Part shown: positions 1,216-12,978 of the stretch, piece after piece | Numbering within the stretch: position 1 is the stretch's first letter | Layout: each line of letters begins with the position of its first letter | Source: Promethearchaeota archaeon Loki_b32 | GTDB taxonomy: Archaea > Asgardarchaeota > Lokiarchaeia > Sigyniarchaeales > SOKP01 | Length of the DNA stretch: 55,678 nt | Assembly (NCBI GenBank): GCA_005223125.1 | Contig: NJBH01000025.1 | Location: 1-55,678 of the forward strand | Direction: 5' to 3' | Made by a program: the position numbers and the translations under genes | Notes under the pieces: model-generated | The model's input: only the letters and a program-made list of their open reading frames with translations | What the model was told of the DNA's origin: nothing | Databases searched by the model: none

Positions 1216-1977
1216 TTATTCCTCAATACTTATATTGGGGAATATCTTCAAACCTTTACCTATAAAAGATGGATGTCCTGAAAATTTTTTAGAAACATAT
1301 TCATTAAATATTTCTATTGTATTTAATTCTTCACCGTGTTCATTATATATCTTCTTCTCCAAGTATCTTTTCACATTATATGCTGTAAAATCAGATAATT
1401 GAACACCTTCACTTAATCTTGAATCAATAAAATAGATTGCTGGAAGAACTCTTTTAAATTTTATTTTTGTACTTTGCAAGATGATATCTTTGACTAATTC
1501 TTTTATTCTCATGTCCTTTTTTAAGTCTTCTGTATCTCTTATAATAATACCCATTGTTTGGTATTCATCCCGTAAAGTCATTTCAATCCTTTCAAGTAGC
1601 ATTGTATAATTCCAATATTTAATATTGTCCTGTTGAGTGACTTTATCTTTTAAAATGGCAACAGAGATGACTTTAAATTGAGTATTAGAATATACATTTA
1701 TCATTATTGAACGATATAATTCTATTGCATAATTAAAATCTAACTTCTTTCCTAAACTAGTCATACCTTTCTCTTGGCTAAATAAATTTGATGCGTGAAG
1801 TTCAAAATTCGAGCTTTTTAAATTATACTTGCTAGCAATTCTTTCTTTCTCTTTGAAGATATTTAGATAAAAATTCAAAAAGTCTTCTTCTTTAAGTAAA
1901 ATGGCATTAAGAAGGTAAATATTAGTCCCATCAGTATAATCTATACTTCCTGATTCATCAATAAAAATTAAGACCAT
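1216..1977 (-). CDS. DUF3800 domain protein
   Basis: The protein starts with IFIDESG (residues 4-10) and carries SEGVQLSDFTAY near residues 205-216. These are the two acidic signatures of the DUF3800 family, which has an RNase H-like fold and is common in mobile and defence-associated DNA. The conserved Asp residues (in DESG and LSDF) could bind metal. The length of 253 residues is normal for the family. It is the last gene of a minus-strand series headed by ParB-like genes, separated from the small gene upstream by about 80 bp. The biochemical role of the family is not settled, so no reaction is assigned. The family call is strong. Confidence 0.8.
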   Translation of the reverse strand: MVLIFIDESGSIDYTDGTNIYLLNAILLKEEDFLNFYLNIFKEKERIASKYNLKSSNFELHASNLFSQEKGMTSLGKKLDFNYAIELYRSIMINVYSNTQFKVISVAILKDKVTQQDNIKYWNYTMLLERIEMTLRDEYQTMGIIIRDTEDLKKDMRIKELVKDIILQSTKIKFKRVLPAIYFIDSRLSEGVQLSDFTAYNVKRYLEKKIYNEHGEELNTIEIFNEYVSKKFSGHPSFIGKGLKIFPNISIEE

Positions 1978-2060
1978 ATAAAAATCTAATATTTATTGTA
2001 AATAAACATATAAGTAATTCTCTTTAAATGACCTAATTGTTTAAATAAAAATTAAAAAAA

Positions 2061-2246
2061 TTATTCTTCCTCACAAATTTGTCCCCATCTAAATGAATAT
2101 ATCCCTTTTTTTCCATTCTTAGTATTTTCTACTTTAAATTTCAATTTATTATCAAGTAAAGTTTTAACAGCTAAACTAGGGCGCTTTTCATCAATCAGTT
2201 CTTCCTTATTTAAATTACCAAGTTGTTTTATTTTGTATATTGGCAT
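2061..2246 (-). CDS. Small hypothetical protein (61 aa)
   Basis: A basic and acidic mixed protein beginning MPIYKIKQLG, with no motif I recognise. It lies between the ParB-like gene (35 bp upstream) and the DUF3800 gene, on the same strand, so it is probably cotranscribed with them. The codon choice is AT-rich like its neighbours. It could be a small DNA- or protein-binding accessory factor, but nothing in the sequence proves this. Confidence 0.5.
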   Translation of the reverse strand: MPIYKIKQLGNLNKEELIDEKRPSLAVKTLLDNKLKFKVENTKNGKKGIYSFRWGQICEEE

Positions 2247-2280
2247 TTTATTTTTCCCTTTTTTGATTTAACTTTTTTTA

Positions 2281-3627
2281 TTATTTAGAATTTTCAATAC
2301 ATTTGTCTTTTTGAAATTCTTTAAGCTTTTCTATTTTGATATTTTTTTCTTCAATCTTTTTATATAAATCCTTATTTTCTTTTAATAACTCGTCAACAAT
2401 TTTCTGCTGTAATATATATTCTTGTGTCTTTTTTATATCAATTTGATTATTATCATCAAATTCTATTCTTAAACTATTTAAAAAATTTTTTAGATACTGA
2501 GGAAGACTTGAGTATCGATTCCAAGCTCTTTGAACAATTTCACTATATGAGAAATGTGTAGATGGAGTACCTTCAATACTAATAATTGGAGTTCCAGAAA
2601 CTTGAAGTACATTAATGGAATAATTTCCTCTTTTAAAAGAGATTTCTTTTATTTTTTTATTCTCTCCCTGTGCAGGTGCATGTATTAGAATAGAATGTTT
2701 TCCTGTTGATAAAAGCCATCTTTCTATTAATTCCTTTATGAATGTTTTAGTTGAGATAAATCTTGAGGCAACATATTCTACTATGGTTTGCTTCAAATTT
2801 GGATCTTTAAAAATAAAATCGCCAACATGTAAAATTCTATCTGTTTCATAACCTTTTTCAATTTTTTTTATAATTTCATGAGGATCTTTATCTGGATTCT
2901 GAGATATTCGCTCAATTGCTTTCAGAGCATCTCTACTATTCATTCCCAATACATCAACAGCTATCTCACAAATCGTATCGTGAGGAAATCCTTTAAGTTT
3001 CAATGCCATCGAATGTGTTATTTTAATTCCTAATTTTTTATGTCTTAATTTTATCATATTATCATATTTTTGCAATTTTTTCATTTCCTTTTCGCAAATA
3101 TTTCTCTCTTCTTTCATTAATGATAATACTGGTGAAGGAAGATCAAAAATATTTAAATATCGTAAAAGAACTTTCTCGTTAATAGGATTATCTTTTATAG
3201 TTCGCTTAATTGCTTCATGATGTGTCATACCAGATTCTATACAAGTATCATAAAAATTTTTATAATGTGTATAATTTTGAAAGTCAGTCCAAGGATTTAC
3301 TATACTTGCTTGTTTTGCCGCTTTTAACGCTTTAATATGATCTTTATAAACACGACAAGGAAATTTAGTTAAACCCGCTTGAAAACCTGCTTGGTATCTC
3401 TCCCAGCCATCAGATATCCAATACTTACCGTTATCATACCAAGTAATTAAAGACTTATCATGATCATATTTTTCCTTTATAGAATCAACTAATTCATCAC
3501 TAGGAATTTCTTGACGAGGATTCATTGGATCTAATTCTAAATCATTAATAGAAACATCTTTTATGATATAATCTGATGCTTCATGTTTCTTTACCATCCT
3601 TCTTTTTTTGCCTCTTTTTCTAACCAT
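2281..3627 (-). CDS. ParB-like nuclease-domain protein (448 aa)
   Basis: The N-terminal 100 residues form a ParB/sulfiredoxin-type domain: VSINDLELDPMNPRQ near the start and WISDGWERYQAGFQAG around residues 70-85, matching the GxRR/GWER box that in ParB proteins binds nucleotide. The middle is helical and could contain a helix-turn-helix. The last 40 residues are rich in Lys, Glu, Ile and Leu and look like a coiled coil. The start overlaps the upstream ParB-like gene by 37 bp; an internal Met 10 residues later (3597) would cut the overlap to 7 bp. Such overlap implies translational coupling. No ParA-type ATPase is in view, so the pair may act in transcription or plasmid-like maintenance rather than classical segregation. 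Confidence 0.7.
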   Translation of the reverse strand: MVRKRGKKRRMVKKHEASDYIIKDVSINDLELDPMNPRQEIPSDELVDSIKEKYDHDKSLITWYDNGKYWISDGWERYQAGFQAGLTKFPCRVYKDHIKALKAAKQASIVNPWTDFQNYTHYKNFYDTCIESGMTHHEAIKRTIKDNPINEKVLLRYLNIFDLPSPVLSLMKEERNICEKEMKKLQKYDNMIKLRHKKLGIKITHSMALKLKGFPHDTICEIAVDVLGMNSRDALKAIERISQNPDKDPHEIIKKIEKGYETDRILHVGDFIFKDPNLKQTIVEYVASRFISTKTFIKELIERWLLSTGKHSILIHAPAQGENKKIKEISFKRGNYSINVLQVSGTPIISIEGTPSTHFSYSEIVQRAWNRYSSLPQYLKNFLNSLRIEFDDNNQIDIKKTQEYILQQKIVDELLKENKDLYKKIEEKNIKIEKLKEFQKDKCIENSK

Positions 3628-4604
3628 TGTATATATACTTGTCGAACTAATTGGGCGGTTTTCATATGTGCTCGACTTAAAGCGGTTCTATGCCAATAAT
3701 TATATTCAGAAGGAATTTTAAATGCAACAGAAGGAATATCACTCATTGTAGGAGTCTGAATATTATGTTCCTCTTTGACTTCTTTCATTACTATTTCAAA
3801 AGTTTTTTCTTTATCTTTAAGTTTATCTCGAATATCTCGTAAAATGATTTCCTGTTCTTTCCATGGTTTTTCTTTATCGAGAGAAAAATCTTGAATCATT
3901 TCAAAAATCTTATCAACTTTTTCTGATGGTGGGATTTCTCCAAGATGATCTGTTATTTTTTTTATAATTGAAAGTGTTTGAAAATTCATTTTAAAATCTG
4001 GTTTAATATCATATTGCTCAAGGATTAATCTTTCTGCATCAGTTCTTTCTTCTGGTTTTTTGATTAAAATTTGAAGCTCTTTTGGAAGTTTTTCTACCGT
4101 TAATATCTTATTTATATATGTAGTATTTCCTTTATAACATTTATCAGCTATCTCTTTTTTTGCATTTTTTTTTCTTTCTTCTTCTGTTCCTTCTGTATAT
4201 TTTTCATTTATTAATATCTCAAGCCAATTAAGAACTGAAATCATTTTTTGAGATTCAGTAAGATCTTTTCTTCCTATATTCTCACTAAAAGACATTGCTA
4301 TTGCATCAGGATCAGAAAGTTCTAATATCTTACATGGAACTTCACTATATCCTGCTCGAATTAAAGCATTGAATCTCCGCCATCCCGCTACAATAGCATA
4401 AGGTTTATCAGTATTTCCACCATATTTTTCACTATTTGTTGATCTGACGATTATATTATAAATTAATCCAATTCCTTTGATTGAATTTATCAATTCCTCA
4501 TCTTTTTCATCCTCTATCCATTCACCGCCTCTCGCTTGAGTAGTATCTATAGCAATATCATCAATGGAAATCATTTTTATTACATTTTTCTTTATTTCAT
4601 TCAT
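3591..4604 (-). CDS. ParB-like partition/regulator protein (337 aa)
   Basis: A ParB N-terminal domain runs through the first 120 residues: ISIDDIAIDTTQARGGEW, then IVAGWRRFNALIRAGYSEVPC (about 72-92) and SENIGRKDLTESQK (about 107-120). This is the classic order of ParB boxes, including the basic GWRR box and the ENxxRxDLT box. The C-terminal half is charged and helical and probably binds DNA or partner proteins. It heads a minus-strand unit with the second ParB-like gene; a terminator lies upstream and the leader contains three TTTAATATA copies (about 4618-4640), a likely promoter region. Two different ParB-like proteins in tandem without ParA is unusual. Confidence 0.75.
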   Translation of the reverse strand: MNEIKKNVIKMISIDDIAIDTTQARGGEWIEDEKDEELINSIKGIGLIYNIIVRSTNSEKYGGNTDKPYAIVAGWRRFNALIRAGYSEVPCKILELSDPDAIAMSFSENIGRKDLTESQKMISVLNWLEILINEKYTEGTEEERKKNAKKEIADKCYKGNTTYINKILTVEKLPKELQILIKKPEERTDAERLILEQYDIKPDFKMNFQTLSIIKKITDHLGEIPPSEKVDKIFEMIQDFSLDKEKPWKEQEIILRDIRDKLKDKEKTFEIVMKEVKEEHNIQTPTMSDIPSVAFKIPSEYNYWHRTALSRAHMKTAQLVRQVYIQWLEKEAKKEGW

Positions 4605-4648
4605 TTTAAATCATTTTATATATTTAATATATTTAATATATTTTTAAA

Positions 4649-4683
4649 TAAAAAAAAAGAGCGCTCCTAATAAAAAAGCTCTT
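4649..4683 (-). terminator. Intrinsic-type terminator, minus strand
   Basis: Read on the minus strand, AAGAGC (4683-4678) and GCTCTT (4662-4657) form a 6-bp stem, followed directly by a run of T (4658-4650). It lies after the 94-residue gene and before the ParB-like gene, dividing the minus-strand series into two transcription units. Confidence 0.55.
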
Positions 4684-4710
4684 ATTAAAAGTAATTGTAT
4701 TCATAGATAT

Positions 4711-4995
4711 TTATTTATCGTTGGGTAACCAACCCATTGCAATATCTTTCCAGCTTACACCTTCAACATCAAAACTTCCTTTTCCACTTATGTCAGAATA
4801 AACGATCTCAGCAATAGTAGCATCTCCATTTTCAGGTAATCTCTCTCTAAGTCCCTTAATAGCCTCTGTTTTATCGGCATATAGATATAACTGTTCTATA
4901 TCTATTAATACCCAAAATTTTCTTACTTTTTTTGTTATTACTTTTCCTTTTTCTTCAACTTCAATTTCAGTTTCATTTACTTCCAAATAACTCAT
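4711..4995 (-). CDS. Hypothetical protein (94 aa)
   Basis: A compact acidic protein beginning MSYLEVNETEIEVEEKG, with the pattern FWVLIDIEQLYLYADKTEAI in the middle and SWKDIAMGWLPNDK at the end. I do not recognise the family. It follows the 310-residue gene by a single base and is followed by a terminator, so it is the last gene of a three-gene unit headed by an RHH regulator. The alternating hydrophobic pattern suggests a small alpha/beta fold. Confidence 0.6.
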   Translation of the reverse strand: MSYLEVNETEIEVEEKGKVITKKVRKFWVLIDIEQLYLYADKTEAIKGLRERLPENGDATIAEIVYSDISGKGSFDVEGVSWKDIAMGWLPNDK

Positions 4996-4996
4996 T

Positions 4997-5929
4997 TTAA
5001 CGACCTCCTATATTAAAGCCATCTAATTCCAATATATTTTCTTTTGTAATAAAGTATGTTTTTATGCAATCATATTTAGTAGGTAAATAATTCAGATAGA
5101 TATATTGAGCTACTTCTCTAGGTGCTTTTGGTGTTAAATCTTGCTTTGTATAACCTTTCCAATACATCGTACTCACTCGTCTTTCCATTCTTTTAGGTTC
5201 TTCTTTCTTTGTTCTCTCTATTAATTGGTGTAAATTAAGATTTCTTATTCCCCATTTACGGTAATAAACACCTAAATCTTTATTGAGTTCATGTATCCTA
5301 CTTCTAATATCTTTATTTTCTGCTTTTTCTGATATAAATGTCACTTCAAAAAGATTTGTCTTTGTTCCAGCTATTTTTTGAAGTTCATCATCTTCTATTG
5401 TAACTACTAAGAAATCAACAGGAATATCTGCATCGTACTCTATGTCTTTCTTTGTTGGATGTGGCTTCTTTGGCAATTTTTCATCTAAATAATCAATTAT
5501 TTCACCAATTTTACTGTTATCTAATGGATTTAAAACTGTTCCATCAATATCATGAACTCGTTTATAATTGATCTCTATTTCAGTACTACTTCCTGTATGA
5601 AAAGTAATGCCGTAATGTTTATCAACATCTAATTTCTCATCGGATTTTAGTCCACCTTTTCCTTTTAATATATAAATAGATTCCCTATAAAAATTTAGAA
5701 TCATTCTTAGACTTTGTGTTAAAATTGAAGGAATGAAAGCGACTATTTTTTCTTTTGTTATACTTGATTTTTTTGAATCGGTTTTTTCTTGTTCTGAATT
5801 TATTTCTCCATTTATAGTATTTTTTGCGATTTCCATTTTGTTCTTTTCTAATTCATGAATTTTTTGATCTAATTCTATTGCTTCTTTGTTTAATTTTTCT
5901 TGATTTTTACTCATCTTTTTTTTCACCAC
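4997..5929 (-). CDS. Hypothetical protein with N-terminal coiled coil (310 aa)
   Basis: Residues 5-45 are charged heptad-like sequence (NQEKLNKEAIELDQKIHELE), followed by a linker and a hydrophobic stretch near residues 62-85 (FIPSILTQSLRMILNFYRES) that could be an amphipathic helix. The remainder looks alpha/beta, with no motif I can name. The start overlaps the end of the RHH gene by 23 bp, and the next gene follows after one base, so the three are almost certainly cotranscribed. The partnership with an RHH protein recalls plasmid or toxin-antitoxin cassettes, but no toxin fold is visible. Confidence 0.6.
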   Translation of the reverse strand: MVKKKMSKNQEKLNKEAIELDQKIHELEKNKMEIAKNTINGEINSEQEKTDSKKSSITKEKIVAFIPSILTQSLRMILNFYRESIYILKGKGGLKSDEKLDVDKHYGITFHTGSSTEIEINYKRVHDIDGTVLNPLDNSKIGEIIDYLDEKLPKKPHPTKKDIEYDADIPVDFLVVTIEDDELQKIAGTKTNLFEVTFISEKAENKDIRSRIHELNKDLGVYYRKWGIRNLNLHQLIERTKKEEPKRMERRVSTMYWKGYTKQDLTPKAPREVAQYIYLNYLPTKYDCIKTYFITKENILELDGFNIGGR

Positions 5930-6077
5930 CTTGATTTATCCAATTTCTTATTGCTTCTTGAATTGCTTTATTTATATTGCCCCTTCTCAAACCAAAACGC
6001 TTAAAGATCTCTGTTCGGAAGCTCTCCTCTAAATCATCAGGTAAAGCAACACTTATTCTTCCCATATTCATTTCCAT
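5907..6077 (-). CDS. Ribbon-helix-helix (CopG/Arc-type) DNA-binding protein, 56 aa
   Basis: This short gene reads MEMNMGRISVALPDDLEESF and continues to a TAA at 5909-5907. The pattern RISVALPDDLEESFR is a typical RHH beta-strand plus first helix, followed by GNINKAIQEAIRNWI, the second helix with its N-cap Gly-Asn. RHH proteins dimerise and usually repress their own operon. It heads the minus-strand unit, and its end overlaps the next gene by 23 bp. The divergent zinc-finger gene starts 70 bp away, so the shared upstream DNA (6078-6147) probably holds its operator. Start at the first of three Met codons; the third (MGRISVALP) is equally possible. Confidence 0.8.
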   Translation of the reverse strand: MEMNMGRISVALPDDLEESFRTEIFKRFGLRRGNINKAIQEAIRNWINQGGEKKDE

Positions 6078-6147: not shown

Positions 6148-6759
6148 ATGTTTATGCAACATATTATGAATTTTGAAAGAAATTTTAAAATTGAAATGGT
6201 TAAACCATTAGTCTTTAAAATTTATTCTAAATTGTCAAAAGAAACATTTGAAGTCATAAATTATATTACCGATTGGCATTGTAAATGTCCAGAGCACATT
6301 GAAACAAGTAGTGAATGTAAGCATATTAAGCTTATAAAATCATGGTTGGGTTTTAAAAAGAATAGTAGAATAGCACAAGAGAGTAAGTTTAAGTGTGATA
6401 AATTTGAATATAATTTGGATAATAATAATTTGATTAAACCACTTCCAACTCATCCCCCTCCTGATCCAAATGAAAGTTTAGGGAAATGGATTGAAAAGAT
6501 TGGCAATACCAATCTAATTGAATTTAACATTATAATGGATTATATTATGAATTATATTGATAAAATTGGATTTGAAAAAACACTTCATCTTTTAACCAGA
6601 TGTCCAATTGACAAAATAATTGATTTAGAAAATGAATTTAAAGATGGATTCTGGAAAAATCGTAAAGAATGTCCAATTAAAGGTTGCAAGTATATTAGTC
6701 ATAATAAAACTAATATTATTTATCATTTAGCAACTCGCCATCATTTAGAAGGAAAATAA
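6148..6759 (+). CDS. SWIM zinc-finger protein with C-terminal C2H2-like finger (203 aa)
   Basis: Near residues 44-58 the motif WHCKCPEHIETSSECKH fits the SWIM zinc-finger pattern CxCx9CxH, known to bind DNA or proteins. Residues about 105-170 (ESLGKWIEKIG to FWKNRKECP) are clearly related to the N-terminal domain of the neighbouring ten-finger protein. The end carries one finger, CPIKGCKYISHNKTNIIYHL, with a Cx4C spacing also seen in finger 1 of the neighbour. The two genes converge with only two bases between their stops. The shared domain shows that they are paralogues in part and probably work together. Function unknown. Confidence 0.7.
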   Translation: MFMQHIMNFERNFKIEMVKPLVFKIYSKLSKETFEVINYITDWHCKCPEHIETSSECKHIKLIKSWLGFKKNSRIAQESKFKCDKFEYNLDNNNLIKPLPTHPPPDPNESLGKWIEKIGNTNLIEFNIIMDYIMNYIDKIGFEKTLHLLTRCPIDKIIDLENEFKDGFWKNRKECPIKGCKYISHNKTNIIYHLATRHHLEGK

Positions 6760-6761
6760 TT

Positions 6762-7967
6762 TTAAAGTTTATATTCTTCAAATAATATTTTATGTTTATT
6801 TATTATATGTCGCTTTAAATCCGATTTTTGCTTTGACTTATAATCACATAAGGAACATTTATACCAGATTACACCAATATCATGTTTATTTGCCAAATGT
6901 CTATTAAGATTTGATTTTAATTTAGACTTATAATCACATTTGGAACATTTATACCATTTAACACCAATATTATGCTTATTGGCTAAATGTTTGGTTAAAT
7001 TACTACTTATTTTTACCTTATATTCACAATGAGGACATTGATACCACTTAACATTTATATTATGTTTATTAGCTAAATGCTTATTTAAATCGCCTTTAAT
7101 TTTAGATTTATATTCACAATTGGGACAATGATACCATTTAACGCCAATGTCGTGCTTATTGGCTAAATGTTCTGTTAATACTTTCTTATATTTGGTTTTG
7201 AAGTCACAGTAATTACATTTATACATCTTTACATTAGGATTATGAAGATAATTAATATGTTCCTTTAATTTATGCTTTTGTTTTGCCTTATATTCACAAT
7301 GTGGACATTGAAACCATTTAACATTTATATTATGTTTTAATGCTAAATGTCTTTTTAAAGAAGTAGAATGTTTTGATTTATAATCACATTTGGAACATTT
7401 ATACCATTTAACACCAATATCATGAGTAAAAGCTAAATGTTGAGTTAGATTTGTAGATAATTTTGTTTTGTAATCACAGTGAGGACATTTATACCATTTT
7501 GAGTTAATATCATGAATATTTGCTAAATGAATTGCTAACGCTTGTTTCTCTTTTGCTTTATAAACACAATGAGGACATTTTTGCCATTCTATTCCAAGAT
7601 TATGAATTAAAGAAATATGACGAAACATTCCTGAATCGGATTTACTTTCATATTTACAACTTTCAATAGGACAAAGCTTTTTGTTTTTCCAAAAGTCTTT
7701 CTTAAATTTATTTTTTATTTTTGCATTAATCTCAATAGGAGATCTTGTTAAATAGCTTAAGCATTCTAAAAATCCTGCCTTTTCAGTATAATCAATTATA
7801 TGCTTTAACATGATTCCAAAACTGATTTTATTTTCTTTAGCTAACTTTTCAATCCATTTACCAATACTTTCATTTTGTATCGGTGGTGTTAAATTATACC
7901 CTAAATATAATATAACAATGAATCCATAAGGTAATTTAATTGTCATATTTTCAAAAAAATTACTCAA
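6762..7967 (-). CDS. Poly-C2H2 zinc-finger protein with ten fingers (401 aa)
   Basis: After an N-terminal domain shared with the convergent neighbour (ESIGKWIEKLA to FWKNKKLCP) come ten fingers. Finger 1 has Cx4C; fingers 2-10 fit Cx2C-x12-H-x4-H, for example CPHCDYKTKLSTNLTQHL. The repeat length is exactly 30 residues and the linker is H(D/N)IxVKWY(K/Q) instead of the TGEKP of eukaryotic proteins. Such arrays normally wrap around DNA, or bind RNA or protein. Long arrays are rare in archaea. The start shown overlaps the divergent helicase by 28 bp; a second Met (7946) would still overlap by 7 bp. The near-identical 90-bp units point to recent expansion by unequal exchange. Confidence 0.85.
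   Translation of the reverse strand: MSNFFENMTIKLPYGFIVILYLGYNLTPPIQNESIGKWIEKLAKENKISFGIMLKHIIDYTEKAGFLECLSYLTRSPIEINAKIKNKFKKDFWKNKKLCPIESCKYESKSDSGMFRHISLIHNLGIEWQKCPHCVYKAKEKQALAIHLANIHDINSKWYKCPHCDYKTKLSTNLTQHLAFTHDIGVKWYKCSKCDYKSKHSTSLKRHLALKHNINVKWFQCPHCEYKAKQKHKLKEHINYLHNPNVKMYKCNYCDFKTKYKKVLTEHLANKHDIGVKWYHCPNCEYKSKIKGDLNKHLANKHNINVKWYQCPHCEYKVKISSNLTKHLANKHNIGVKWYKCSKCDYKSKLKSNLNRHLANKHDIGVIWYKCSLCDYKSKQKSDLKRHIINKHKILFEEYKL
6815..7640 (-). repeat. Tandem 90-bp units coding for the zinc fingers
   Basis: At DNA level, blocks such as TTATACCATTTAACACCAAT recur every 90 bp, with strong nucleotide as well as protein conservation. The variable positions fall mainly in the codons for the finger helix (the x12 segment), as expected for an array that diversifies its target while keeping the scaffold. 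Confidence 0.75.
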
Positions 7968-10867
7968 AAATCGATCTTACACCAGACTCAGAAACGAAAG
8001 TACAGTTAAGAAGACCTCAGATAGGTGCGATACATTCCATAGCATCATATTTCACGAGAAGTTTAGAAAGAAATGATTTGGATCCTGCAATTATCGTTTT
8101 ACCAACAGGTAGTGGAAAAACTGCAGTTTTAGTATTATCACCTTTTTTATTGAAAGTAAAAAGAGTATTGATAATCACTCAAAGCCAAATTGTCAGAAGA
8201 CAGATTTTTAGAGAATTTAGTGAATTACTATTATTAAAAAAGTTGAAAATTTTACCAGAGAACATGCCATCTCCAAGAGTATATGAATTAGATAAAATGC
8301 TTAAATCTGAGAAACAATGGCAAGAATTAATGAAGAATGACGTTATAATATCTACACCTGCTTGTATTAGTCCGCAGTATAAAAAAATTTACCAGGCACC
8401 CAAAGAAGCATTTGATTTGATTTTATACGATGAAGGTCATCATTTACCAGCTATAACTTGGTTTGGTATTTCCAATTATTTCGATAGTATGGAAATATTA
8501 TTTACTGCAACTCCATTTAGGAATGACAAAAAAAGTATTTACGGAAAAATTATATATGAATTTACTATAAGTGAAGCCTACAAAGACGAGATTTTTGGAA
8601 ACATCAATTTTATTCCTGTAGAAGTATCATCAATAGAACCCAACGATATCGATGTTGCAATTGCGAAAAAAACAGAAGAAATTTTTAAACAAGATAGGGA
8701 TGACGGATATGAACACCTAGTCCTAGTTAGGTCTTCTAAGATTGAAAAATCAAAAGAATTACTTGAAATATATAACAATAATACTGATTTATCTCTAAAA
8801 TTGATAAATAGTCAGCATTCACAAAAAACTGTCCAATCAATATTAAAAGAACTTCAAGAAGGAAAAATAGATGGTGTAATTGCTGTTGATATTATGAACG
8901 AGGGGGTTGATATCCCCAATCTCAAAATTGCTGCAATTCATTCTACATATAAATCCTTGAGCATCTTGCTGCAATTTATAGGAAGATTTGCAAGAACTGG
9001 TCATGAGAAAATTGGTGATGCGAAATTTATCGCAACTCCACAGAATGTGACTATAAATGCAATCGACTTATACCGAGAAGACAAGAAGTGGCAAGAAATA
9101 ATTCCTAAACTGTATGATAGCAAGATTCAAGGAGAGGTGAAGTTACGTGATGATATTTATTCATTTAATGCAATTGAAATTGAAGGGGTCACTCTTGATG
9201 AAACAATTACAAGACTTTCATTATTTGAGTTTAAACCGAAAAAACATGTGAAAGTTTACCAAATTGAAAATACGGTAGATTTACAGGCTAATTTAGAGCT
9301 AAAGGGATGGTCAATCGTTAAAAAGGATTTTAGCTCCGAATTGTCTTGCGTAGTATTTCTTATTAAAAGGATAGAAAAACCAAAATGGGCAACAACAAAT
9401 ATTCTTAGTAATATTGAATATCAATTAATTGTAATTGTTTATTTTGAGGCAACAAAACTTCTTTTCATTAATTCTTCCATTAAATCAGATTTCATCTATG
9501 ATTATATTGTTGAACAAATATCAATTGGAGGATATTACACATTATCTACGAACGAAATAAATAGAGCTCTAACATATCTAGAATCTCCAGAATTCTATAA
9601 TATAGGAATGAAAAGAAGAACTTTTGGAACTAGTTCAGAATCTTATCGGATGATAACTGGACCAAGAGTTGAAAATGCTATAAAGAGTAACGATGGCTAT
9701 GCGTTTGAGAGGGGTCATGTTGTTGGCAAAAGTCGTTCTATAGGAGAGAATAATACACTAGGTGTTAGTAGTTCATCTAAAATTTGGACTAGTGGTCGTG
9801 GTTTAATCCCTGAATTTGTTGATTGGTGTCATATATTTAATGATATCTTGTCAGATAATACCATTGATATTGATACAGGTACAAATTTAGATAAAATAAA
9901 AACCGGAAGTAGATTATTAGAGATACCTAATAATGTAGTTGCTGTAAATTGGAATGATGAGATCTACAAACATACTGCATTAGGAAAATATGAGATTTCT
10001 GGAGAATTAAAGGAAATCAACTTACTAGATTTCTCACTTGAAGTAATTGATCAAGATGATGATGATGACAGTATTCAATTTGAAATCAATAATAACGAAA
10101 TAGAATGGAAATGCTATTTTCGTTTACAATCGCCATTATTTATTCAAGATAATTCAAACCCAAGAATTTTAATTGAATTCAATGAACAAGAATGTGAATT
10201 GTTAGAGTTTATTAAATCTTATCCAGTACAGTTCTATACTAGAGATTTATCAATTATAACTGGAAATAATATTAGTAAAATGCCCTCAATTAATGAGAGT
10301 TATGACACTAGAAATATTGATACAATGGATTGGGATAATAATAATGTCGATATTACTTCAGAAGAGATTGGATCTTCAGAAGATGGATTATCTATCCAAG
10401 AATTTTTACTTAACTATTATCATGGATCCTCAGAAATTGTATTCTTTGATCATCGTAAAGGAGAAATTGCTGATATACTCCTTTTTAATATGAATCAAAG
10501 AAATGAACTTTTAATTGACTTCATTCATATCAAAAGTTCTTCTCAATCTAATCCTGGTCAAAGAATGAAGGATGTTGATGAATTAATCGGTCAAATATTA
10601 AGATCAATTAAATGGACACAAATTGAAGACCTAATTTCAAGAATTGAATACAGAATGGAGGGTAGTAGTTATTTTTATCACGGAACTTTTGATGAATTAA
10701 AAGAATTAAAAGAAAATTATGATAGCGTTACATTTCGAATTATAGGAGTACAACCAGGTCTTTCAAAAAATAGATTGAACGATCGCGTTTTAATTCCATT
10801 TCAAGCTTTATCAGTTTTTGTATCTTCATTTAATATCGAATCAGTTAAATTACTTATTTCTGAATGA
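7940..10867 (+). CDS. SF2 (DEAD/DEAH-type) helicase with extended C-terminus (975 aa)
   Basis: A RecA-like core carries Walker A PTGSGKT (residues 55-61), Walker B DEGHH (164-168), motif III TATPF (189-193) and, in the second lobe, EGVDIPNLKIA and QFIGRFART (motifs V and VI). The remaining 600 residues resemble restriction- or defence-type helicases; a segment near residues 830-860 (GEIADILLF then LLIDFIHIKSS) might be a degenerate PD-(D/E)XK nuclease, but this is weak. The only possible start among ATG, GTG and TTG is TTG 7940, because TAA lies directly upstream and no other start occurs before the core. It overlaps the divergent finger gene by 28 bp. Likely role: ATP-driven DNA or RNA remodelling, possibly in defence. 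Confidence 0.75.
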   Translation: MSYFQKNYSKIDLTPDSETKVQLRRPQIGAIHSIASYFTRSLERNDLDPAIIVLPTGSGKTAVLVLSPFLLKVKRVLIITQSQIVRRQIFREFSELLLLKKLKILPENMPSPRVYELDKMLKSEKQWQELMKNDVIISTPACISPQYKKIYQAPKEAFDLILYDEGHHLPAITWFGISNYFDSMEILFTATPFRNDKKSIYGKIIYEFTISEAYKDEIFGNINFIPVEVSSIEPNDIDVAIAKKTEEIFKQDRDDGYEHLVLVRSSKIEKSKELLEIYNNNTDLSLKLINSQHSQKTVQSILKELQEGKIDGVIAVDIMNEGVDIPNLKIAAIHSTYKSLSILLQFIGRFARTGHEKIGDAKFIATPQNVTINAIDLYREDKKWQEIIPKLYDSKIQGEVKLRDDIYSFNAIEIEGVTLDETITRLSLFEFKPKKHVKVYQIENTVDLQANLELKGWSIVKKDFSSELSCVVFLIKRIEKPKWATTNILSNIEYQLIVIVYFEATKLLFINSSIKSDFIYDYIVEQISIGGYYTLSTNEINRALTYLESPEFYNIGMKRRTFGTSSESYRMITGPRVENAIKSNDGYAFERGHVVGKSRSIGENNTLGVSSSSKIWTSGRGLIPEFVDWCHIFNDILSDNTIDIDTGTNLDKIKTGSRLLEIPNNVVAVNWNDEIYKHTALGKYEISGELKEINLLDFSLEVIDQDDDDDSIQFEINNNEIEWKCYFRLQSPLFIQDNSNPRILIEFNEQECELLEFIKSYPVQFYTRDLSIITGNNISKMPSINESYDTRNIDTMDWDNNNVDITSEEIGSSEDGLSIQEFLLNYYHGSSEIVFFDHRKGEIADILLFNMNQRNELLIDFIHIKSSSQSNPGQRMKDVDELIGQILRSIKWTQIEDLISRIEYRMEGSSYFYHGTFDELKELKENYDSVTFRIIGVQPGLSKNRLNDRVLIPFQALSVFVSSFNIESVKLLISE

Positions 10868-11670: not shown

Positions 11671-12978
11671 CCTAAACGTTTTTTGCTCGTAATTGGGAGT
11701 TTATATGTTTTCGTCGATGAAGGTAGATTAAAAATTATCTATCAGGAGGGACGAAAAAAGATTGCGAAATTTATGGAACCCTTTGATTTCAAGGAAGATG
11801 AGAACAAATTCCGAATAAATGGTTTATTAGGGCATCCTCAAATCGCTAAAAAAAACAGAACTTATTCAAGTCTATTTATTAATCAACGCTATATTATTAG
11901 TGATGTCTTATTTAGAGCTATAAGTGAAGCTTATGAAGGAACTTTAATGGTGAGTAAATACCCTTTCTTTATTATATTTCTTGAGCTTGATCCCTCTGTT
12001 ATTGATTTCAACGTTCATCCAAAGAAACTTCATGTTAGATTCGAAAAAGTGGATTCAATTTATAATAAAGTTTATAATGTTATCAAAGGTTTTGTGGAAG
12101 ATAAATTTATTATAAAAGAGGCAAAATATATATCCGCTGAATTACATGATTTTATACCTAAAGAAGAGAAAAAATTTGCCGAAATTACAGAAACTATAAC
12201 AGAAATTCGAGAAAAAGAAGTTAAAGATATCAACTCAACGCAAGAACTGCCAATATTACCTGAAGAAAGTGTACAATTAAACTTAGATGATCAAGTAATT
12301 AGAGATAAATCAAATAAAAAATTACCTCCTGAGGCATTTTTACGGGGTAAGTATATTATTTCAGAAAATTTTCCAAAGCTCCGTTTAATCTCTCATACAG
12401 GTCAATTAAATAATAAAATTTATGTAGTTTTAGAGGGTATTAACGAAAATAATGAAGAGGGCTTATTTATTTTAGATCAACATGCAGCATCAGAACGGAT
12501 AAGTAAAGAAAAATTCTTGGATGCGTTTGAAACATCAAAAATGAGTAAGCAAAAATTAATATCTGCCTTAAAAATTGAAGTATCTCCAAGTGAAAGGATA
12601 TTTTTAGATTCTAACTTACGTGAAATCCAAAAGTTGGGATTTAGTTTTGAATACTTTGGAGGAAATACATTTATTTTGAGAGAAATTCCTACAATCATGG
12701 GAAAACTTCCAAATATAAATATCATAAAAGAAATAATTAGTGATATTTCTAAAATTGGCAAGGATAAAAGTTTTTCAGATATGAAGGAAGAAATTATTAA
12801 CTATTTATCATGTCATAAAAGTATTAGAGGAGGGGATGATCTCTCCTTAAAAGATATTAGAGGATTATTGACTGAATTAGCGGAATGTAAAGATTCATAC
12901 CATTGCGCTCATGGAAGACCTACTTTAAGATTTTTCTCTTATAGAGAATTAGATAAACTATTTAAAAGAATAGTATAA
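11659..12978 (+). CDS. mutL: DNA mismatch repair protein MutL, 5'-truncated
   Basis: MutL links mismatch recognition to strand incision. The fragment contains the end of the GHKL/transducer region (SLFINQRYIISDVLFRAI, then DPSVIDFNVHPKKLHVRF, the conserved NVHPxK loop) and the complete C-terminal dimerisation domain with LDQHAASERI (the QHAxxER site) and CAHGRPT near the end. The C-terminal DQHAxxE and CxHGRP signatures are those of MutL with metal-dependent endonuclease activity. The N-terminal ATPase domain, about 200 or more residues with the ATP-binding motifs, is absent: MutL-like sequence starts near 11695-11705, directly beside the cut RecA-like gene. The GTG at 11659 is therefore an artefactual start. 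The protein would lack ATPase activity. Confidence 0.85.
   Translation: MQKHPKRFLLVIGSLYVFVDEGRLKIIYQEGRKKIAKFMEPFDFKEDENKFRINGLLGHPQIAKKNRTYSSLFINQRYIISDVLFRAISEAYEGTLMVSKYPFFIIFLELDPSVIDFNVHPKKLHVRFEKVDSIYNKVYNVIKGFVEDKFIIKEAKYISAELHDFIPKEEKKFAEITETITEIREKEVKDINSTQELPILPEESVQLNLDDQVIRDKSNKKLPPEAFLRGKYIISENFPKLRLISHTGQLNNKIYVVLEGINENNEEGLFILDQHAASERISKEKFLDAFETSKMSKQKLISALKIEVSPSERIFLDSNLREIQKLGFSFEYFGGNTFILREIPTIMGKLPNINIIKEIISDISKIGKDKSFSDMKEEIINYLSCHKSIRGGDDLSLKDIRGLLTELAECKDSYHCAHGRPTLRFFSYRELDKLFKRIV

Follow-up and report, generated by a model that had tools for sequence, protein, structure and literature searches.

Two adjacent genes in the Asgard archaeon Loki_b32 probably encode target selectors of the Tn7-like transposon type, derived from TniQ and orphaned in the window (the whole 55,678-nucleotide stretch of DNA analyzed here). 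P0001 (203 aa, positions 6148 to 6759, forward strand) combines a SWIM-like motif, a TniQ-like helical domain and one C2H2 finger, and P0002 (401 aa, 6762 to 7967, reverse strand) joins a TniQ-like domain to an array of ten C2H2 fingers. The third gene of the group encodes an SF2 helicase (7940 to 10867, forward strand), and all three ORFs lie at the positions and on the strands given in a preliminary description of this DNA. P0002 has a TTG start and its first ATG, at 7946, is 21 bases inside the frame. The head-to-head overlap already recognized between the starts of P0002 and the helicase amounts to 28 bp if both genes use TTG.

The ten fingers of P0002 (6792 to 7673, reverse strand) were delimited by tandem repeat, finger alignment and AlphaFold2 modelling. 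The array matches Pfam C2H2 families (best match 1.8e-49) and holds a DNA tandem repeat of period 90 at 6832 to 7499. It shows both the pattern of a C2H2 array, C-x2-4-C-x12-H-x3-5-H, and the bba fold: fingers 2 to 10 are modelled as bba units, at a pLDDT of about 70-85, and the best Foldseek matches of the model are CTCF, ZFP568, PRDM9 and TFIIIA. The exact 30-residue period attributed to the array holds for fingers 2 to 10, which begin at residues 131, 161 and so on to 371; finger 1 is of the C-x4-C type. The fingers have HX4H spacing and linkers of the DIGVKWYK type.

Variable helix positions on a fixed scaffold had also been proposed, and the comparison of the fingers bore this out. Among 25 testable columns (the finger columns minus the zinc ligands and the fixed leucine), the contact positions -1, 2, 3 and 6 are the four most variable (exact rank enumeration, P = 1/12650). 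Their entropies in the nine CX2C fingers are 2.50, 2.42, 2.42 and 2.20 bits, with a mean of 2.38 bits for contacts versus 1.10 for the scaffold. The same rank test gave P = 0.003 for the array of a relative in Lokiarchaeota CR_4 and P = 0.06 for that of Ca. Sigynarchaeum. Since the contact positions are the most variable, diversification falls on the residues with which the fingers would contact DNA. Within the P0002 array pN/pS is 0.99 at contacts and 0.47 at the remaining positions, with 0.31 for the strands; the contact value is not above 1 and is a signal of relaxation or diversification. These data also bear on the idea that the orphan pair is recent, non-functional debris in decay. The transposase is missing and decayed relatives exist in two other genomes (G017 and G041), as such debris would predict. 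However, both frames are full-length, the zinc ligands are complete in 10 of 10 P0002 fingers, and the contacts vary while scaffold pN/pS stays low, so that we consider this explanation hardly credible.

P0001 and P0002 share a domain of about 95 residues (44% identity over 97 residues; P0001 matches the shared-domain model at 2.9e-56). It was correctly recognized before as common to both proteins but not in its position, which is N-terminal in P0002 (7689 to 7886, reverse strand, located with the shared-domain model and HHalign) and C-terminal in P0001 (6442 to 6654, forward strand, located by HHalign against canonical TniQ). An HHalign comparison of the shared-domain profile with seven canonical Asgard TniQ proteins gave a probability of 94.6% (E = 7e-8, 67 columns), the matched part being Hel1, the N-terminal helical domain of TniQ/TnsD. 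The profile of the canonical Asgard TniQ proteins itself recovers solved TniQ chains (best 2e-8). The TniQ core consists of Hel1, a zinc finger, a connector and Hel2, and TnsD proteins carry helix-turn-helix extensions (PMC10293859). The window proteins have neither the TniQ zinc motif (CxxC ... CxxH) nor Hel2; in place of the zinc motif, a C-x4-C C2H2 finger immediately follows Hel1, and in P0001 this is the single finger (6670 to 6741, forward strand).

Neither window protein passes Pfam TniQ (PF06527, gathering cut-off 27 bits) and the shared domain alone receives no Pfam name. The best window-type relative, the short protein of Ca. Sigynarchaeum, falls below this cut-off with 22.3 bits (E 2.2e-4) over nearly the whole profile. 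Foldseek with the low-confidence P0001 model yielded a TniQ match only at E 8.8, which is not significant. Because the TniQ-like part is poorly modelled and has no significant structural match, membership in TniQ is argued from sequence profiles and gene neighbourhood, and on these profiles the shared domain is identified as a divergent form of the helical domain of TniQ. The SWIM name given earlier to P0001 stands as to the motif, C45-x-C47-x9-C57-x-H59 (residues 45-59, 6280 to 6324, forward strand), read directly from the protein, but the Pfam SWIM family (PF04434) gave no score and the label derives solely from this CxCxnCxH pattern.

Of the Asgard genomes searched, two contain intact relatives of the shared domain, Ca. 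Sigynarchaeum springense (G067) and Lokiarchaeota CR_4 (G066). The Sigynarchaeum operon reads TnsAB - TniB - TniQ-ZF - TniQ-ZF (TnsA 1.1e-8, rve 6e-6, TniB 7.6e-27), with a long selector of nine fingers and a short one of about three, and that of CR_4 reads TnsAB - TniB - TniQ-ZF. Fusions of TniQ and fingers were also found, and those of G073 and G168 are independent of the remote-homology argument for the window domain. An 892-residue frame in genome G073, adjoining TniB and TnsAB, contains two TniQ domains, one on either side of 13 C2H2 fingers whose linkers are of the TGEKP type (Pfam TniQ E 6.8e-35, 121 bits; C2H2 E 2.8e-69). In G168, from another family of the phylum, TniQ (3.5e-17, 64 bits) is fused to six fingers and adjoins TnsAB, and a protein of G166 begins like TniQ and continues with TGEKP fingers. 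TnsA, a DDE-type TnsB and TnsC are all present at the relatives' loci according to Pfam matches and the catalytic triad; D445, D541 and E577 are invariant in six TnsAB proteins, and TnsC carries Walker motifs.

The CR_4 TnsAB is 57% identical to the TnsAB of G074, which has a canonical TniQ without fingers, whereas the CR_4 TnsC is closer to its Sigynarchaeum counterpart (55% identity) than to the G074 protein (26%). Since these identities point to different partners, the part comprising TnsC and TniQ-ZF has apparently been exchanged between transposases. In a TnsAB tree, selector type changes at least twice and neither fused nor unfused TniQ types form single clades, although long branches leave the details unsure. 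Decayed finger-array relatives, apparently transposon debris, occur in genomes of the same genus or family (L059:3153-3569, L060:8689-8973 and L016:3093-3386). In viral contigs, plasmids and phages, no matches were found to the domain or the array, nor to TnsC or the G168 fusion, and the TnsAB search of the same collections gave one weak match, on a viral contig.

Some further loci were recorded during this survey. Tn7-like TnsAB-TnsC-TniQ loci occur in several Asgard genomes (L062, L093, L094, L090, L063 and L106), some without finger arrays, on contigs that carry archaeal TFB or FEN1 genes. The TnsC/TniB proteins of G065 end in a C2H2-like finger (L063:140-1321, reverse strand, CQMKNC...HHYRRKH; L106:2017-3201, reverse strand, CIIENC...YHYKIKH). 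One Asgard genus encodes, in six or more of its genomes, a fusion of seven C2H2 fingers with a conserved C-terminal domain that contains 'PEIVVYYENNTKRIIDAKRS' (L064:5230-6375, reverse strand, also L028-L033). This domain has no Pfam match; by eye it resembles a PD-(D/E)XK nuclease core, and the fusion could possibly be a natural zinc-finger nuclease.

The preliminary description was right about a putative DNA-reading array that diversifies at its specificity positions and about its paralogy with the SWIM-motif protein, but it took the array for a targeting module of the adjacent SF2 helicase, for example in a sequence-directed restriction or defence machine. The head-to-head overlap of the genes would suit such a role, as would the weak similarity of the helicase, a ResIII/Helicase_C protein by Pfam, to type I/IV restriction and Dnd-type helicases. 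However, none of the 116 other genomes searched yielded a helicase relative at E <= 1e-40, and the finger gene and helicase are divergent and form no operon. The finger genes of G067, CR_4, G073 and G168 adjoin TnsAB and/or TnsC and none has a helicase partner, so that the pairing sought in other Asgard genomes is unique to this contig. We therefore regard a helicase guide as very unlikely. It is adjacency alone that ties the helicase to the fingers, and the same inserted DNA probably carries it as unrelated cargo of a defence type; Tn7-like elements usually bear cargo of this sort (PMC8649781).

To the right of 11753-11755 the window is collinear with same-genus mutL loci through EF1-beta, beginning with the C-terminal part of the native mutL (11753 to 12978, forward strand, identified by homology to those loci), which is broken at about codon 216. 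Because unrelated DNA stands in place of the first approximately 215 codons of mutL, the left 11.75 kb looks like inserted DNA of which only one border lies on this contig. Besides the finger-gene pair and the helicase, it carries at 1-765 and 1216-6077 a plasmid- or virus-like gene set: a contig-edge TFB-like gene, DUF3800, two ParB-like proteins, a 310-aa protein of unknown function and a 56-aa ribbon-helix-helix-like protein. A second, intact mutL on contig C6 is 70% identical, more distant and without an adjoining EF1-beta, and a replacement of the mismatch-repair gene is possible. Contamination is an unlikely explanation: EF1-beta occurs on this contig only and the order mutL-EF1-beta agrees with that in relatives, which makes the contig most likely a genuine part of the genome.

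No TnsC or TnsB operon surrounds P0001 and P0002 in the window, and the host assembly (95.5% complete) contains no TnsC, TnsAB or Pfam TniQ at the thresholds used. The pair may be a remnant, a selector with an unassembled, off-contig TnsABC, or a domesticated DNA-binding pair. In the last case P0001 and P0002 would be TniQ-derived regulators of the inserted element, acting in transcription, partition or superinfection control with no role in transposition; the host without TnsA/B/C, the TFB-like, ParB-like and ribbon-helix-helix-type neighbours and the intactness of both genes agree with this. On the other hand, every relative with an intact operon and enough flank adjoins TnsAB and/or TnsC, and the same-genus relatives are decayed arrays, as expected of mobile-element debris and not of conserved regulators. 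We consider domestication unlikely and orphaned transposon selectors the better reading.

One candidate element end was recognized. Behind the Sigynarchaeum TniQ genes, a 20-base motif (GTTCGAGnnAAAAnnTACATG) recurs seven times at a spacing of mostly about 32 bp, and the array reaches to within about 12 bp of the stop codon of the neighbouring gene, which is xylose-isomerase-like, an arrangement like that at attTn7. These repeats possibly form a right end with TnsB-like sites and the candidate terminal sequence TGTTCGTG. Its end can be placed only approximately, because in a comparison with G073 as the empty site the homology does not extend past the stop codon of that gene. This right end was the only end found; the left end is off the Sigynarchaeum contig, and no target duplication was seen. 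No convincing repeats of the Sigynarchaeum type were present within the window, and a crude finger-code scan around the end of the Sigynarchaeum element and the break in mutL predicted no site (P 0.1 to 0.9).

Under the selector reading, the P0002 array would read a DNA sequence of at most about 30 bp (up to ten fingers at 3 bp per finger). The TniQ-like helical domain would be the adaptor that recruits the AAA+ protein TnsC, as in known systems, and TnsC would call the TnsA-TnsB transposase and lead to insertion beside the site read. P0001, which has a single finger besides its SWIM-like motif for zinc, could be the short partner of a long/short pair such as that of Ca. Sigynarchaeum. We give roughly even chances to the wider proposal of zinc-finger-guided transposons in Asgard archaea, in which a modular C2H2 array on TniQ sets the insertion site, arrays were captured more than once, the TnsC and TniQ-ZF cassette was swapped between transposases and retargeting proceeds through the contact residues.

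A survey of 6,549 Tn7-like elements reported no Tn7-like transposase in archaea in 2021 (PMC8649781), nor are C2H2 selectors mentioned in a survey of 80,028 loci (PMC10293859). No C2H2-array TniQ selector is described in the part of the literature searched, which included few subscription papers and preprints. C2H2 arrays are probably the DNA reader of these Asgard Tn7-like selectors, a kind absent from the published surveys found. Coupling zinc-finger arrays to transposases is a long-standing engineering aim, and the C2H2-array TniQ looks like a natural version of it.

The Asgard proteins share with TnsD/TniQ selectors (PF06527) the helical domain, a zinc segment right after it, a long C-terminal extension that would read DNA and, in the Sigynarchaeum and CR_4 relatives, the operon with TnsAB/TnsC. 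However, that extension is helix-turn-helix in TnsD and a tandem C2H2 array in the Asgard proteins, and the window-type proteins lack the CxxC-CxxH motif and Hel2 of the former. TnsF of Tn6022 also brings zinc fingers into a Tn7-family target selector, but they are LIM-like and accompany a tyrosine-recombinase-like domain (PMC10293859), whereas the Asgard selectors carry C2H2 arrays on TniQ. Eukaryotic poly-zinc-finger proteins (CTCF, PRDM9, ZFP568, TFIIIA) likewise have tandem C2H2 fingers that diversify at -1, 2, 3 and 6; P0002 differs from them by the six-residue linker DIGVKW instead of TGEKP, the HX4H spacing, the 30-residue period and the TniQ fusion. It offers a prokaryotic setting for diversifying long C2H2 arrays, comparable to PRDM9 or KRAB proteins, in the closest archaeal relatives of eukaryotes. 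The short TniQ of type V-K CAST elements (PDB 7n6i, 8bd5) is similarly close to Hel1 plus a zinc region and is coupled to a swappable target reader, which is an RNA-guided Cas complex there and a fused protein array in Asgard archaea. The C2H2-array TniQ would join helix-turn-helix TnsD and RNA-guided CAST as a third way in which Tn7 elements select their targets.
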